A stretch of DNA of 64,000 nucleotides from Bacteroidota bacterium (GTDB taxonomy: Bacteria; Bacteroidota; Bacteroidia; Chitinophagales; Saprospiraceae). Below, one piece after another: positions 10,619 through 56,957 of this stretch; within the stretch, counting starts at the first letter, position 1, and each line of letters starts with the position of its first letter. Location of the stretch: assembly GCA_030147525.1 (NCBI GenBank), contig JASBVF010000003.1, positions 310,001 through 374,000 on the forward strand, given 5' to 3'. A model generated the notes under the pieces. The model saw only the letters and a list, made by a program, of their open reading frames with translations. It was not told where the DNA came from and made no database searches. The translations under genes were made by a program, and so were the position numbers.

Positions 10619-11461
10619 ATGACCCTAACCTTTATCTCAGACGGATTTTTCAAACTGGACGGCGGCGCCATGTTCGGCATCGTTCCTAAAAAGTTGTGGG
10701 AAAAACAAAACCCGCCCGACCAGAACAACCTCTGCACCTGGGCGTTGCGATGCCTGCTCATCGAAACCGGCAACCGGAAAATCCTCGTCGATACCGGCAT
10801 GGGTACCAAACAGGACGAAAAGTTCCGCTCCTACTTTGAGCCTCACGGGGAAGACTCACTGGAAAGCTCTCTGGTGAACGCCAACATTTCCCCTGAAGAA
10901 ATCACGGATGTATTCCTGACCCATCTGCACTTCGATCATTGTGGCGGAGCTGTAAAATTTGATAAAAACGGTAAACTTACTCCCACCTTCCCGAATGCTA
11001 ACTATTGGTCGAACGAGCGCCACTGGAATTGGGCCCTGAATCCCAACGACCGGGAAAAAGCTTCTTTTTTAGTTGAAAATTTCGTCCCCCTGCAAAAGGA
11101 GGGTAAGGTGAAATTCCTCGACGTGCAGCAGGATCTTCTCCCCTGGCTGCCGGGCTTGTCCGTTCACTTTTCCTACGGACATACCGAAGCCATGATGTCT
11201 TTACACATCGACACCGGCGACGACTACTACGTATACTGCGCCGACCTGATGCCTTCCGCTTTTCACATCAGCATGCCCTGGATTATGGCATACGACATCC
11301 GTCCTATGGTGACACTGGAAGAAAAAGAGTGGTTGCTCAGCAATGCTGTCGATAAAAACTGGAAACTGCTTTTTGAACACGATCCTGCAGGAGCTTGTGG
11401 CACCGTACATCGCGATGTGCGGGGCAGGATTGTTTTGAAAGAAAAGAGCATGGTGATTTAA
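10619..11461 (+). CDS. MBL-fold metallo-hydrolase
   Basis: A metallo-β-lactamase superfamily hydrolase of 280 residues without signal peptide, so cytoplasmic. The zinc motif H-x-H-x-D-H is THLHFDHCGG (His102, His104, Asp106, His107). Further ligands are likely in FSYGHTEAMM and YCADLMPS, and His in LFEHDPAG. The overall arrangement (RCLLIETGNRKILVDTG near residue 43) resembles the lactonase/quorum-quenching type MBL proteins. The true substrate cannot be read from the sequence. It is flanked by genes on the opposite strand and has its own promoter. Confidence 0.88.
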   Translation: MTLTFISDGFFKLDGGAMFGIVPKKLWEKQNPPDQNNLCTWALRCLLIETGNRKILVDTGMGTKQDEKFRSYFEPHGEDSLESSLVNANISPEEITDVFLTHLHFDHCGGAVKFDKNGKLTPTFPNANYWSNERHWNWALNPNDREKASFLVENFVPLQKEGKVKFLDVQQDLLPWLPGLSVHFSYGHTEAMMSLHIDTGDDYYVYCADLMPSAFHISMPWIMAYDIRPMVTLEEKEWLLSNAVDKNWKLLFEHDPAGACGTVHRDVRGRIVLKEKSMVI

Positions 11462-15513: not shown

Positions 15514-17193
15514 ATGAACCTCCACGATACGATCATTCAACTTTTACTATCCAATAAAATATTATTGCTTTTCCTCGTCATTGCGCTTGGCTACCTGATC
15601 GGCAAGGTGAAGGTATTCGGGTTTAGCTTTGGCGTGGCGGCGGTGTTGTTTGTCGGACTGGCTTTCGGAGCCATGCACCCCGACATGGCGCTGCCGGACA
15701 TGATTTATATGGTGGGGCTCGTACTGTTTGTTTACACCATCGGGCTACGGTCAGGGGCGAGTTTTTTTGCTTCTTTTAAAAAATCGGGGATCAGGGACAA
15801 CCTGTTGGTCATCAGTGTACTGATTCTTTCGGCAGGTCTTACGCTTGGGTTGGGGCAGCTGTTTTCCATCAAAAGCACCCTGCTCTCCGGGCTGTTCTGC
15901 GGCTCGCTGACCAACACACCGGCGCTTGCCTCTGTCATCGATGTTTTAAAACAAACCAAAACCGCACTGCCCGACGAACAGCTCCGCAAACTCATGGCAG
16001 AGCCGGTGGTTGGCTACTCCCTCTCCTACCCTGTCGGCGTGATGGGTGTGATTCTGCTGTTTCAGCTGGGCATGAGAATCTGGAAAGTTGACCTGAAAAA
16101 AGAGGCGGCCGCCACCGCTGAATTCACCGGCATCAGCACCGAAGCCCTCGACCACATCAACGTGGAAATCACCAACCCGGCACTGGACGGCAAAAACCTG
16201 CAGGAACTGGCCATTTTTGCCAATTTTCAGGACCTCACCGTCTCCCGCCATTTGCCGAAAGGCAAGACAAAAGTGGAGGTGCCCTCCGGCCAGACCATTA
16301 TCCGTCAGGGCGACGTGATGACCATTGTCGGGCCGGAATCGCAACTGGAACAGGCCCAGGCTATCCTCGGCATTCTCTCCAAAAAAGATCTTTCACTGGA
16401 TGCGGGCGAACTGGGCATGCGCCGCATTTTTGTCTCCCGGCGGGAAGTGATTGGGAAGCCCATCAGAGAGCTGGAATTGCATAAAAAATTCCGTGCCGTC
16501 ATCACCCGTATCCGCCGGGGCGACGTGGACCTGCCCTTCAGCGCCGAAATGCAACTGGAAGCGGGCGACCGGGTGCGGGTGATTGCGCCGAAAGAAAAAA
16601 TCCAGGAGATCAGCAAATACATGGGCGACAGCTACCAACGGCTTTCCGAGGTGGACTACATCAGTTTTTCGATCGGGATAGCGCTGGGTCTGCTGTTGGG
16701 GATGATCCCGATTCCGCTGCCGGGCGGCACCACTTTCAAGCTGGGCTTCGCCGCCGGTCCGTTGATCGTTGCGCTCTGGCTGGGCAAACTTGGCCGCAGC
16801 GGTAATTTCATCTGGATCATGTCCTACAATGCCAACTTTACGCTTCGCCAGATCGGCGCCGTGCTCTTCCTGGCGGGTATCGGACTGAAGGCAGGCTATT
16901 CGTTTTTCTCCACCTTCCAAACCGCTGGTTTTCAAATGATTGCGCTGGGCGCCGTGGTCACGATTTTCACCGCAGGCATCACGATGCTGGTGGCAAGACT
17001 TGTTTTCAAAATGCCATTTTCGCTCCTGATGGGCATGCTGTCGGCGCTTCACACACAACCTGCCTGTCTGGCTTTCGCCAATGAAAAAGACGACACCGGC
17101 GCTGCCAATATCAGCTACGCAACGGTTTTCCCGACGGCCATGGTGGTGAAAATTTTGCTGGCGCAAGTCATCCTGATGCTGGGAGGATCGTAG
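15514..17193 (+). CDS. AspT/YidE/YbjL-type transporter with two RCK_C (TrkA-C) domains
   Basis: An inner-membrane permease of 559 residues, the normal size. Hydrophobic helices occupy residues 10-190, with the duplicated-domain motif GLFCGSLTNTPALASVIDVL. Two soluble TrkA-C type ligand-binding domains follow (about 205-290 and 295-375), each ending in a G-D-x-(M/R)-x-(I/V)-(V/I) strand (GDVMTIVGPE, GDRVRVIAPK). A second membrane half (380-559) repeats the motif as GMLSALHTQPACLAFA. Relatives include the aspartate:alanine exchanger AspT and E. coli YidE/YbjL. The substrate here is unknown. A 21-bp repeat array begins 75 bp after the stop. Confidence 0.9.
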   Translation: MNLHDTIIQLLLSNKILLLFLVIALGYLIGKVKVFGFSFGVAAVLFVGLAFGAMHPDMALPDMIYMVGLVLFVYTIGLRSGASFFASFKKSGIRDNLLVISVLILSAGLTLGLGQLFSIKSTLLSGLFCGSLTNTPALASVIDVLKQTKTALPDEQLRKLMAEPVVGYSLSYPVGVMGVILLFQLGMRIWKVDLKKEAAATAEFTGISTEALDHINVEITNPALDGKNLQELAIFANFQDLTVSRHLPKGKTKVEVPSGQTIIRQGDVMTIVGPESQLEQAQAILGILSKKDLSLDAGELGMRRIFVSRREVIGKPIRELELHKKFRAVITRIRRGDVDLPFSAEMQLEAGDRVRVIAPKEKIQEISKYMGDSYQRLSEVDYISFSIGIALGLLLGMIPIPLPGGTTFKLGFAAGPLIVALWLGKLGRSGNFIWIMSYNANFTLRQIGAVLFLAGIGLKAGYSFFSTFQTAGFQMIALGAVVTIFTAGITMLVARLVFKMPFSLLMGMLSALHTQPACLAFANEKDDTGAANISYATVFPTAMVVKILLAQVILMLGGS

Positions 17194-17267
17194 TTAAATG
17201 ACTGGTGTTTTTCGGCTGAAAAGACCGTATTCCCGCTAAAACGATGCGTATTTTCGCAAAAAAAACC

Positions 17268-17489
17268 TGACTGTTCGAGCGAAAAACCTGACTCTTCGAG
17301 CAAAAAGTTTGACTCTTCAGTCAAAAAACCTGACTGTTGAAGCAAATAATCTGACTGTTGAAGCAAAAAGTTTGACTCTTCAGTCAAAAAATCTGACTGT
17401 TGAAGCAAAAAATCTGATTTTTTTCATGAAGAGTCTGATTTTTTGCTTGAAGAGTCAGGTTTTTTGACTGAAGAGTCAGGTTTTTTTTA
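17268..17489. repeat. 21-bp tandem array that reverses orientation
   Basis: Eight units start at 17268, 17289, 17310, 17331, 17352, 17373, 17394 and 17415, each beginning TGACT or TGATT and separated by exactly 21 bp. Three units in the opposite orientation follow, with AGTC at 17432, 17453 and 17474, again 21 bp apart. Units are not identical: the middle alternates CTTCAGTC, GTTGAAGC and CTTCGAGC. The arms 17373-17414 and 17437-17478 can pair as a stem of about 42 bp (one wobble, two mismatches) around a 22-nt loop. There are no spacers, so it is not CRISPR. The 17194-17559 gap holds nothing else recognisable. Confidence 0.9.
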
Positions 17490-17559
17490 TGAAAATACGG
17501 ATCATTTTGGCGAAAATTGAAGCGTCGAACGTGAAACCATCCTTAACCCATCAGGTAGT

Positions 17560-18246
17560 ATGAAAAAGAACAACTCACGTCAGTATCGCTTTCTCATCTC
17601 CCTTCTTCTATTACAACTTTGCCTTCAGGGGGCCGGGCAAAGCGATCAACAGAGATTGCCAAACCCAGATTCCGGGCCGGCCACACAACAACAGGATCAG
17701 TCCTCTGTCAATAGCATAGGCAAACACCGCTGGCTCCTATCCGGTACTGCTGGAGTCGTGGACAATACTGGCTTCCTGTTCGATGTAACCTTCCAATACT
17801 CCCCCCTGCCCCATTTTTATGTTGCAGCGGGCGCAACACGCATTGGCCGCCAGGCCCGTAACAAACCGTCAGATTTTGAACCCGGTTTACTGGATGGGCT
17901 CTCGTTCGGCGTTTCAACCGCCGAAACAGCCAAAACCCTGAACCTGCTCCTTGGCATCCAATCCGGCTCTGTCGGAAAAAAAGCTTCACTGGCCTTCGAA
18001 GCAGGCATTTCTGCCGGCAGCTGTGAACTGGTAGAATTTACTCCACGACCAAATTCCGGAGGTTCATTTGACCTTGGAGGGAATTACTCGGTCCGCAAGG
18101 AAAGCTCCTTCACCAAAGGTTTGGAACTGCGGGGAAAAGTAAGATGGCGTTTAGGCAAATTATTCGGGATCGGAACGGGCGTTGCCGGGCGTATTTCAAA
18201 AAACTACCCTTTCATTGGCATCCTGCTCAACATGAACCTTGGGTAG
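17560..18246 (+). CDS. Exported hypothetical protein, possible small outer-membrane barrel
   Basis: A 228-residue protein with a signal peptide (RFLISLLLLQLCLQGAGQ). A short Gln/Pro/Ser-rich linker is followed by alternating polar and hydrophobic strands with frequent Gly and aromatic residues (FDVTFQYSPLPHFYVAAGAT, LSFGVST, LLLGIQSGSV, LELRGKVRWRLGKLFGIGTG) ending in NMNLG. This pattern fits an outer-membrane β-barrel. I do not recognise a family. It follows the 21-bp array and precedes the transhydrogenase operon by 304 bp. Confidence 0.7.
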   Translation: MKKNNSRQYRFLISLLLLQLCLQGAGQSDQQRLPNPDSGPATQQQDQSSVNSIGKHRWLLSGTAGVVDNTGFLFDVTFQYSPLPHFYVAAGATRIGRQARNKPSDFEPGLLDGLSFGVSTAETAKTLNLLLGIQSGSVGKKASLAFEAGISAGSCELVEFTPRPNSGGSFDLGGNYSVRKESSFTKGLELRGKVRWRLGKLFGIGTGVAGRISKNYPFIGILLNMNLG

Positions 18247-24579: not shown

Positions 24580-27500
24580 TTATTTCACTAAAACAAATCG
24601 TTTGGTTACTGCGCTGTGGCCTTTAGCTCTAAGGGTCAGAAAATAAAGACCATCATTCAGGTTGGACAAGTCAATCGTTACCGGTCCGTCGGGCAACACA
24701 TCAAATTGCTGTCGCAGCAAGGTTTCACCAAGGTTATTAACGATGGTAATTTGTGCTGGAATACCGGTCAGTTTTTGACTGAATACGGAAACAGATTCGC
24801 TGGCCGGGTTTGGCCACAAATTCAAATCCTTCAAATCCAGCTGAAAGTTAACCTCGCTGATCTCGCTGTAGAAAAATGTTCCATCCCTGAAAAACGCCTT
24901 GATGCGGTAGTAATTTGTTCCAGGATTCGGATGCCTGTCAGCGTCCCTGTATTCCCTGTCCTTTGTACCGCTGTATCGATGCTGTACTTCGAACAACGGC
25001 TCGAAGTCAAAGCCATTCTTTGAACGCTCGACCACGAAGTAGTCGTTTTTATACTCAGTATTGGTAACCCAGAGGAGTTTTACCAGGTGTTCAGCCGGTG
25101 TAGCGTTAAGGCCAAGTCTGTCATTGCCAAGGGCGAGAAGGCTTTGACCTCCGTTCAGGAATAGGCCACAGTTCGGGTTCGCAAACCAGGTAGTCCAGTC
25201 TGAATCAATTTTGTCTTCAGCGATAAAAATACCGGTCATGCTGTTCTGGTTGTTCGATTTACCCTTCGAATCGATTTTTTTCAATGAATAAACATTGCCG
25301 GTGAAATTGGAGCCTTCCTCTACGGAAAAATCGTCTTCAACCCAAAAGCTAACGGTAAACGGGCCATCGGGACCGATGGAATTGTTTTTATCAATCTCCA
25401 CCTTCTTCTGCACTTTTACTTCTGCATTTCCCTGAAATATGATGGACGCTCCGTCTTTGGTTGTGATATCCTCCGCATAGAGTACACTGATGCTGGCATC
25501 GACGTAGAGCGTGGCATTTTCTTTCACTTCAATTTTGTCGTAAACATTGTCCAAACCGCTGATCGTCATGGAAGTACCGCTATTGACGGTAAGATCGGGG
25601 CTGGAGTTATTAGACAAATTATTGAATTGGAAAACTGGCAAAATCACGCTTGCTGACCCGTAAGCCGGGTTATTCGGATAAGGATATGAATTGCCGCCGT
25701 TGATAGTGCTGGCACTCAGGTCGATGTCGGGGGCCTGCACGAAACCAGTGACAGCGGAACTGTTTCTGATTTTCGCTTTTTTGGTGGGATGGGCCACCCC
25801 GACGCCGCCATTGACTGTACTTTCTTTCAAATCAACTTCTTTCGCACTGAACATGGTGTAAGCAGATAGCGTCGTATACGGATCTATGTTGATAGAAATG
25901 CTGCCTGTCACGGTGCAGCCTCCACCCGTCACTGTTACGGTATAAAGTCCATTAGCATCGATGATGATTTCAGCATCATTCGATCCGTTACTCCAGCTGT
26001 AAGTGACGGGCTGCACTTCATTCAAATTAAGCACATCCACATTGAGCACACTGAGACCCTGGCAGCCGTAAGGAACGGTGCCGCTGCCGAGTGAAATAAC
26101 AGGCGCAGGATTTACGGTAACCGTAAAATCACAATTACTTGAATTTCCACTATCGTCATAAGCAGTACAATACACAACAGTCGTCTCCCCTACTTCAAAG
26201 TTACTGCCCGATGCAGGGGAGCATGTGATGTCAGGTGTACCTCCACAATTATCCTGTGCTGAAATATCCCATGTAACCACCGAGGCTCCGCAAGGGACTA
26301 TGATATTTGCCGGGCAGGTAAGGGTTGGAGCAGTAACGTCATCACCCGTCAGGACAACTTCGCAGGTGGCTGTATTGCCGTTGCCGTCATCGGCAGTCAC
26401 GGTTACGGTGTGCGTCATGTTTTCACCAGATAAAAGCTGTGCCCCAGAAGCGGGCAATTGCGTCCAGGTGGTGGTAGTTGAACAATTGTCTGTAGCTGTG
26501 GCACCGTCCGTAAGGTCGGGCACTGACAGTTTGCAGTCGGCATCCAAGGCTATTGTTTGGGCTCCTTCACAGGTTGGCACCGGAGCAATTGCGTCATCAC
26601 CCGTCAGGACTACTTCGCAGGTAGCTGTATTGCCGTTGCCGTCATTGGCAGTCACGGTTACGGTGTGCGTCATATTTTCACCAGATAAAAGCTGTGCCCC
26701 CGAAGCGGGCAACTGCGTCCAGGTGGTGGTAATTGAACAATTGTCCGTGGCTGTAGCACCGTCCGTAAGGTCGGGCACTGTCAGTTCGCAGTCGGCATCC
26801 AAGGCTATTGTCTGGGCTGCTTCACAGGTCGGTACCGGAGCAGTTGCGTCATCACCCGTCAGGACTACTTCACAGGTGGCTGTATTGCCGTTGCCGTCAT
26901 CGGCAGTCACTGTTACGGTATGGGTCGTGCCTTCTCCGGAGGAGAGAATGTCTCCTGAAGCAGGGGACTGCGACCAGGTAAAGGAAGTTGAACAATTGTC
27001 GGTAGCTGTAGCGCCATCTGTAAGGTTGGGTACTGTCAGTTGGCAGCCAGCGTCAAGAGCTATGGTTTGGGCTCCTTCACAAGTTGGCACCGGAGCAATT
27101 GCGTCATCACCCGTCAGGACTACTTCACAGGTGGCTGTATTGCCGTTGCCGTCATCGGCAGTCACTGTTACGGTGTGCGTCGTGCCTTCTCCGGAGGAGA
27201 GAATGTCTCCTGAAGCAGGGGACTGCGACCAGGTGAAGGAAGTTGAGCAATTGTCTGTAGCAGTAGCATCGTCCGTTAGGTTAGGTACTGTCAGTTGACA
27301 GTCGGCATCCAAGGCGATAGTCTGGGCTGCTTCGCAGGTGGGTTCCGGGCTTTCATTATCTGATACCGTCACCGTGAACGAACAAGTATTGGTAGTCCCG
27401 TTCAAAGCCGTCACTACGAATGTATTGAGCGTTGCACCGACCTCAAAGACTGATCCGCTGGAAAGTCCTGCTGTTTGGTTGAATGAAGAACCGGAGCAGT

Positions 27501-56710: not shown

Positions 56711-56807
56711 GTTTTTATTTCTCTTCCACAGCTAATCATTAAAACTGCAGAAAATGGCCGGATCTATTAAAATTTTCATCAAAACAGGGCGATTCCCGTA
56801 AGGAACC

Positions 56808-56957
56808 ACGCAATCTATCACAGCTTACACGCAATCTATCGCAGCTTACACGCAATCTATCGCAGCTTACACGCAATTTATCGCAGCTTACACGCAATCT
56901 ATCACAGCTTACACGCAATTTATCGCAGCTTACACGCAATCTATCACAGCTTACACG
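56808..56957. repeat. 21-bp tandem array, seven units
   Basis: Units start at 56808, 56829, 56850, 56871, 56892, 56913 and 56934, exactly 21 bp apart, consensus ACGCAATCTATCGCAGCTTA followed by C; a partial eighth starts at 56955. Only two positions vary (TCT/TTT and CGC/CAC). It is in the divergent gap between the 56710 and 57143 genes (432 bp), with no spacers. Confidence 0.93.

Follow-up and report, generated by a model that had tools for sequence, protein, structure and literature searches.

A row of 21-bp units that keeps its phase through a reversal of direction lies between two genes at positions 17226–17517 of a 64,000-nucleotide window (the whole stretch of DNA analysed here) from a Bacteroidota genome. 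Intergenic arrays with the same period, mostly of unrelated sequence, recur in the same genome, in a congener and in other classes of the phylum. Our analyses establish the period, how rarely the phase shifts, the absence of a coding signal, the clustering of conserved columns within units, and the recurrence of both the period and the direction switch. The 21-bp step is common to the arrays and the sequence mostly is not, which suggests that the spacing itself matters.

Architecture and surroundings of the array

The original prediction described a 21-bp tandem array with an orientation switch. Tandem Repeats Finder, a unit pattern compared with shuffled sequence and the self-match at lag 21 agree that the array is real (Table 1). 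Of the eight forward and three reverse units proposed, all three reverse and seven forward units are clear; the eighth forward unit is present only in degenerate form in the unit print-out. The ends had been placed at 17268–17489, and the phase reaches one to two degenerate units further out, to 17226–17517. Tandem Repeats Finder reports period 21 at 17260–17417 and at 17416–17493, and in the former interval the 63-bp higher-order period scores above 21. Allowing up to two mismatches, the unit pattern occurs seven times forward and twice in reverse in the window, where shuffles predict 0.10, and a genome-wide search with the pattern adds the third reverse unit (17419–17436, two mismatches). 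The self-match at lag 21 is unbroken throughout the element, direction switch included. Positions 17229–17517 match their own reverse complement end to end (a 71% self-hit by blastn), and 17195–17560 is predicted to fold far more stably than shuffles on both strands (z of −11 and −14). The GC content of the array is 35%.

Table 1. Features of the window that bear on the 21-bp arrays
Feature	Position	Strand	Evidence
Permease gene (upstream), Asp-Al_Ex and TrkA_C domains	15514..17193	+	Pfam PF06826, PF02080
Whole phase-locked element	17226..17517	.	Self-match at lag 21, no phase break
Left degenerate flank, keeping the 21-bp phase and pairing with right flank in predicted fold	17226..17259	.	
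Whole-element inverted repeat, 103/144 opposed positions Watson–Crick (~72% paired)	17229..17517	.	
Eight forward 21-bp units, consensus AAAAAAtCTGACTgTTcaagC, eighth degenerate, 63-bp higher-order repeat within	17260..17427	+	Tandem Repeats Finder, unit pattern
Three reverse units, 21-bp phase unchanged	17424..17486	-	Tandem Repeats Finder, unit pattern
Right degenerate flank, in 21-bp phase	17487..17517	.	
Gene for a 228-aa protein without Pfam match (downstream)	17560..18246	+	
Second intergenic 21-bp array, unit CACGCAATCTATCRCAGCTTA, 7.2 copies, unrelated to the first	56807..56957	.	

The element fills 80% of the 366-bp gap between the permease gene and the gene for the 228-aa protein and is wholly intergenic, as the repeats of the BrickBuilt family (see below) always are. 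A search of the whole window against Rfam at gathering thresholds returned one tRNA only and nothing at the element. A promoter and terminator scan found no promoter-like site, and its sole terminator-like site lies within the upstream permease gene and not in the array. The second array of the window is built of near-uniform units and flanked by divergent genes; no similar DNA was found in 39 other genomes. The window also encodes a T9SS sorting domain (TIGR04183), which would suit a Bacteroidota host, and contains a 255-bp repeat at 26337–27339 (Tandem Repeats Finder, 3.9 copies, 88% match).

It had been proposed that TGACTsTT units be sought elsewhere in the genome and its relatives, and neither pattern search nor blastn uncovered a further array of that unit in the genome. 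The seven exact matches to the unit pattern in the whole genome all fall inside the array, and matches elsewhere with one or two mismatches occur singly and do not outnumber those of the reversed control (98 versus 118 in all). Aligned to its own genome by blastn, the array shows no second full-length place and no common leader or tail; the sole other match below an E value of 0.1 covers 43 bases on contig C31, where no array was seen. The permease orthologue is present in 6 of 13 congeners, and in none of these six was an array seen within 700 bp downstream of it. When 60 genomes, including its own, were searched by blastn, only short hits with E values of 0.002 or more appeared outside its own genome among the matches listed.

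Arrays of the same period in the genome and the phylum

We sampled 1.264 Mb of the 7.08-Mb genome (the window and 60 stretches of 20 kb) with an ungapped periodicity detector, which favours in-phase arrays, and with crude gene calls (longest open frames of at least 100 aa). Among 27 intergenic arrays with a lag of 9 or more, the fundamental lag was 21 in eight, two of which (L110 and L172) have fewer than three copies, and 42 in one. The corresponding counts in 400 kb of a congener, G004, were 3 and 4 of 14, including one array that overlaps a called frame by 46%. For lags of 17–50, a range that omits the doubled 8-bp repeats at lag 16, 16 of the 24 intergenic arrays of these two genomes lie at 21 or 42 (binomial P = 1e-14 assuming uniform lags and independent arrays, assumptions that are only partly true). 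Shuffled intergenic DNA yielded 0 and 0.2 segments per shuffle at lags 12–63 (five shuffles). There was no comparable excess of intergenic arrays at 15, 18, 24, 27 or 30 in the same two samples, and helical spacings other than 21 (for example, 31–32 or 52–53) were not enriched in the own-genome, congener and family samples. One further array location was scored as coding solely through masked bases that were taken as an open frame.

The period is sparse among other relatives. None of 11 arrays in 395 kb from six other congeners has a fundamental lag of 21 or 42, and one of these genomes has a 22-bp array; in 400 kb from nine genomes of other genera of the family, two of five arrays lie at lag 21 or 42, both short. 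Counted as segments, lag 21 occurs twice in the six congeners and five times in the family sample, beside lag 14 (and, in the family, 28 and 35), and these segments have the look of 7-bp repeats. In 100 kb from five genomes of the order, there was no lag-21 segment. Intergenic arrays of period 22 lie at L198:11174–11380 (congener G008, palindromic units) and L147:5291–5445 (G004).

Several other repeats came to light in these samples. The 21/42-bp arrays at L118:13063–13372 and L183:10398–10724, both on contig C31 of the own genome and ~157 kb apart, share one unit family, and a related unit occurs in G004 (L163:18667–18805). For array A3, one weak 27-base match was found among 39 other genomes. 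Two-copy repeats with GGGATGAAAAC at L166:9948–10016 and 11242–11315 of the own genome resemble CRISPR repeats, and a period-66 repeat with 41 copies in G004 (L152:10833–13571) has the appearance of a CRISPR array. The genes beside 17 of 18 arrays are mixed in orientation (10 tandem, 4 divergent and 3 convergent); by inspection, this roughly mirrors the make-up of all gaps (194, 106 and 30, respectively).

Across 395 genomes of the phylum, we searched for three TGACTNTT words separated by any gap of 5–30 bases (spacings of 13–38), so that no spacing was prescribed. Matches in nine of the 12 genomes hit were 7-, 9- or 14-bp repeats or irregular in spacing; the three arrays with longer units, in the own genome and in two genomes of other classes (G218 and G249), all step at exactly 21. 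The reversed word, searched in the same way as a control, matched 47 of the 395 genomes, and the matches of 37 of these were examined. Among the matches listed, most were 7- or 13-bp repeats, and seven were, by eye, regular arrays with units of at least 15, counted irrespective of their position relative to genes. The period is 21 in two of them (one in G206, one more in G218), 20 in three (G247:C45, G298:C106 and G306:C1, the last consisting of 10-bp halves), 17 in the array of G282 and 29 in that of G186. A period of 21 is therefore favoured across the phylum (5 of 10 arrays over both searches), not exclusive.

One 40-kb piece each of G218 and G249, picked for holding a TGACTNTT match, was examined for intergenic arrays. 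The period is 21 bp in three of the six found in G218 (9.3, 2.8 and 21.7 copies) and in both of the two found in G249 (7 and 10 units). The longest (L261:13653–14108 in G218) runs for 12 units in one direction and continues in reversed units with the phase unchanged. A dispersed ~170-bp repeat (L264 in G218), which is likely to be a separate element, adjoins this large 21-bp array; of the 50 matches listed in that genome, 47 lie in the repeat, some as adjacent pieces. A search of the GTDB collection with a pattern of fixed 21-bp spacing returned 23 loci. Two of them, L079 (U1) and L085 (U2), are 21-bp arrays with more than five copies, both from Bacteroidota and both with a direction switch; their period is not independent evidence because the pattern prescribed it. 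In four others (L077, L082, L092 and L099), the step of 21 holds for about three units, with L077 and L092 looking heptad-coding by eye, and the remaining loci comprise two units by design, chance matches or 7-bp repeats. The expectation that other 21-bp arrays exist was thus confirmed for the same genome, the congener and other classes of the phylum, mostly with unrelated sequence.

Units diverge widely within most arrays, and their mean pairwise identity ranges from 0.47 to 0.95. When 17 array rows, extended by 150 bp at either end, were examined at lags 17–25 and 38–46, 15 showed only 21 and/or 42; B4b and U2 showed lags 22 and 43 as well, and the printed units of U1 contain one further one-base shift. 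Conserved columns neighbour each other, as a core and a linker (combined z of 4.4 at lag 1 over 12 rows), and follow no 3-base rhythm (z of −0.5 at lag 3 in the same rows). Over the 17 rows, we found neither a 7-bp sub-period (identity at lag 7 close to the permuted background, with a mean z of 0.2, and 0.3 for the first array) nor a consistent signal of a half-turn sub-period of 10–11 bp. Curvature from A-tracts fails as an explanation of the class because, among the arrays compared by eye, regular A5–6 tracts occur in the first array only. Unit profiles exceed z = 3 in 11 of 171 pairs, and the other 160 do not. The related profiles are those of A3, A3b, A6 and B7 (across two species), of B1 with B6 and A7, of the halves of B4, and of the first array (A1) with U1 and U2, the latter two having been selected by motif. 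A whole-array inverted repeat, reached by 0 of 40 column-permuted controls, is present in 8 of 25 arrays, one of them a 22-bp array for which this control is ill-fitted. The claim that phase rather than exact sequence is kept gains from the recurrence of one period across mostly unrelated arrays, and loses from periods such as 20 and 22, which also occur in relatives.

Explanations of the 21-bp period

We lean, tentatively and with somewhat less than even confidence, towards reading these scattered, non-coding intergenic arrays of Bacteroidota, with their strongly favoured 21-bp period, as rows of sites for DNA-binding proteins set one footprint, or two helical turns, apart. A protein would bind one site per approximately two turns of B-DNA, and bound copies would align along a single helical face and act co-operatively. 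Growth of the array might proceed by in-phase slippage or unequal crossing-over, which would yield the 42- and 63-bp higher-order repeats, and the direction of the array may flip at times by template switching within quasi-palindromic units, which would produce the orientation switch. An effect on neighbouring genes, through insulation or local DNA architecture, is a guess; here we infer protein binding, selection on phase and any such effect from the pattern of the arrays. Rows of protein sites account for the favoured period, the rare shifts and the clustered conservation. Most units bear no relation to those of other arrays (11 of 171 profile pairs above z = 3), so that one sequence-specific binder cannot serve all arrays, and the reading needs different binders, or one that is loosely specific, for different units. 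Its odds are lowered because the control word also gave periods of 20 (three arrays), 17 and 29 beside two at 21. The absence of 21/42 arrays from the samples of the six congeners and their scarcity or absence in the family and order samples also count against it, as do the failure of the second array of the window to match DNA in 39 genomes, the single weak match of A3, the lack of enrichment at helical spacings other than 21 and the detector's preference for in-phase arrays.

The main rival supposes that the arrays are neutral minisatellites: a replication or repair step would duplicate ~20–21 nucleotides and slippage would multiply them in phase, with neither selection nor a binder. We rate it only slightly less probable than rows of protein sites, and the control-word result raised its odds a little. 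Such a bias accounts for unrelated sequences of the same length, for the patchy distribution and for the neighbouring periods (20 beside 21 in the phylum, and 22 in two congeners); the 42- and 63-bp higher-order repeats are typical of slippage, and the mixed gene orientation beside arrays fits as well. It does not easily account for the clustering of conserved columns or for the few off-phase shifts in arrays that have diverged to an identity of 0.47, when indels should accumulate in neutral DNA, and we know of no enzyme with a ruler of ~20–21 nucleotides. Improbable, in our estimate, is an element of the BrickBuilt type, a MITE that carries a minisatellite and is spread by an IS transposase acting on terminal inverted repeats. 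The intergenic position, 35% GC, tandem units, mutually inverted ends and predicted long stem-loop of the first array would suit such an element, as would the presence of the A3 unit family at two genomic places. It is weakened because the first array is single-copy in the genome (one full-length place at blastn level, with no common leader or tail seen); moreover, the unit is 21 bp and not 23, and in 17 of 25 arrays any inverted repeat stays within the range of permuted controls.

Two further readings of the first array are disfavoured. That the element acts as RNA, a giant hairpin serving as a terminator, a stabiliser or a source of double-stranded RNA, seems slightly more improbable still than a mobile element: the very stable folds predicted on both strands and the whole-array dyads in 8 of 25 arrays point towards it, yet G–U oppositions do not outnumber A–C oppositions (37 versus 40 in seven dyads; 9 versus 15 in the first array), in 10 of 20 arrays neither strand gives a fold beyond z = −2 (30 shuffles for each), the genes that flank arrays run in every relative orientation, and the first array has neither a terminator-like site nor an Rfam match at gathering thresholds. 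It is very unlikely that the arrays are, or once were, coding heptapeptide repeats, with 21 bp equal to seven codons. The length is divisible by three, at least one frame is stop-free in 13 of 20 arrays, the eight forward units of the first array, taken alone, leave one frame without a stop, and the translations are heptad-like. Nevertheless, seven of the 20 arrays (A1, that is the first array, A3, A3b, B2, B4, U1 and U2) have every one of their six frames interrupted when read from end to end, with at least two stops in every frame of the first array; stop-free frames are not in excess over column-permuted arrays (a weak test, as permuted arrays are nearly as often open); and a synonymous excess is nominal in A3b and A4 only, where the frames concerned contain 6 and 8 stops. 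The missing 3-base rhythm and the lack of a like excess at 15, 18, 24, 27 and 30 in the two genome samples point the same way. A translated gene at the array, which the original prediction had named as its own refutation, is thus indicated by no coding signal in the sequence.

More broadly, the arrays may represent a 'satellite' class of Bacteroidota in which the period of two helical turns is selected and the sequence is not: phased nucleoprotein scaffolds, often with a direction switch, that would arise repeatedly with new units. We regard this class as unlikely, though far from negligible, its odds having been lowered by the result of the control-word search. If phase is kept rather than sequence, the arrays would parallel, in bacteria, the phased satellite DNA known elsewhere, and they could lead to a DNA-binding architecture of Bacteroidota that has yet to be named; if a mutational bias is responsible instead, they indicate that some step of replication or repair prefers ~20–21 nucleotides. 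Rows of protein sites and mutational bias predict different outcomes of strain comparisons and binding assays, and the question is therefore testable.

Comparison with known repeat systems

Plasmid iterons and centromere repeats are direct repeats of ~17–22 bp, bound by protein on one helical face and placed beside a rep or par gene. The immediate neighbours of the first array are ordinary chromosomal genes, those of the Asp-Al_Ex permease and the Pfam-less protein, with no replication or partition gene, and we rejected an array of this kind. A CRISPR array was likewise rejected, given that there are no spacers at 17226–17517 and that the flanking genes are the permease gene and that of the 228-aa protein. 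Among the papers listed in the literature searched, none describes intergenic arrays of Bacteroidota locked to a 21-bp phase, although print beyond that search may hold one; passages sought in PMC5771137 and PMC4060949 yielded nothing relevant to such arrays.

REP palindromes of the GTAG and CGTC families are described as short extragenic palindromes that can cluster directly or in inverted orientation (PMC3733652). REP sequences form one family, dispersed many times over and tagged at one end, whereas here each locus mostly has its own unit in a strict period. A REP or BIME origin was rejected, exact unit matches being confined to one array and those with one or two mismatches not exceeding the reversed control. 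Heptamer direct repeats (TAACTGA and others) occur in Beggiatoaceae, Cyanobacteria and some Bacteroidetes, where they are mostly intergenic and patchy (PMC4679880). The 21-bp arrays resemble them in being intergenic and patchy and in the long arrays of some Bacteroidetes, and 21 is three times seven, but an origin from 7-bp repeats was rejected as the 21-bp arrays have no 7-bp sub-period.

Two systems of Porphyromonas gingivalis come from the same phylum, and both appear in one paper (Klein et al. 2015, PMC4596501). The 464/PgRS repeats are 41-bp direct repeats within MITE-like elements; they too are tandem repeats in Bacteroidota, but they differ from the present arrays in unit length and in being part of such elements. 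BrickBuilt is an exclusively intergenic 23-bp minisatellite-MITE with predicted long stem-loops, found at 19 places in strain ATCC 33277 with a common leader and tail and IS-like terminal inverted repeats. Its repeat number at one locus varies between strains, bidirectional promoter activity counts among its properties, and the paper reports no BLASTn match beyond P. gingivalis. The present element departs from it in its period of 21, against a 23-bp unit of one sequence, and in having one full-length genomic place, its other matches being short. The original statement that no known element type fits was nonetheless too strong: BrickBuilt is close, and the closest known system, sharing with the array a Bacteroidota host, an intergenic position, spacer-free tandem units of approximately two helical turns and predicted long stem-loops.
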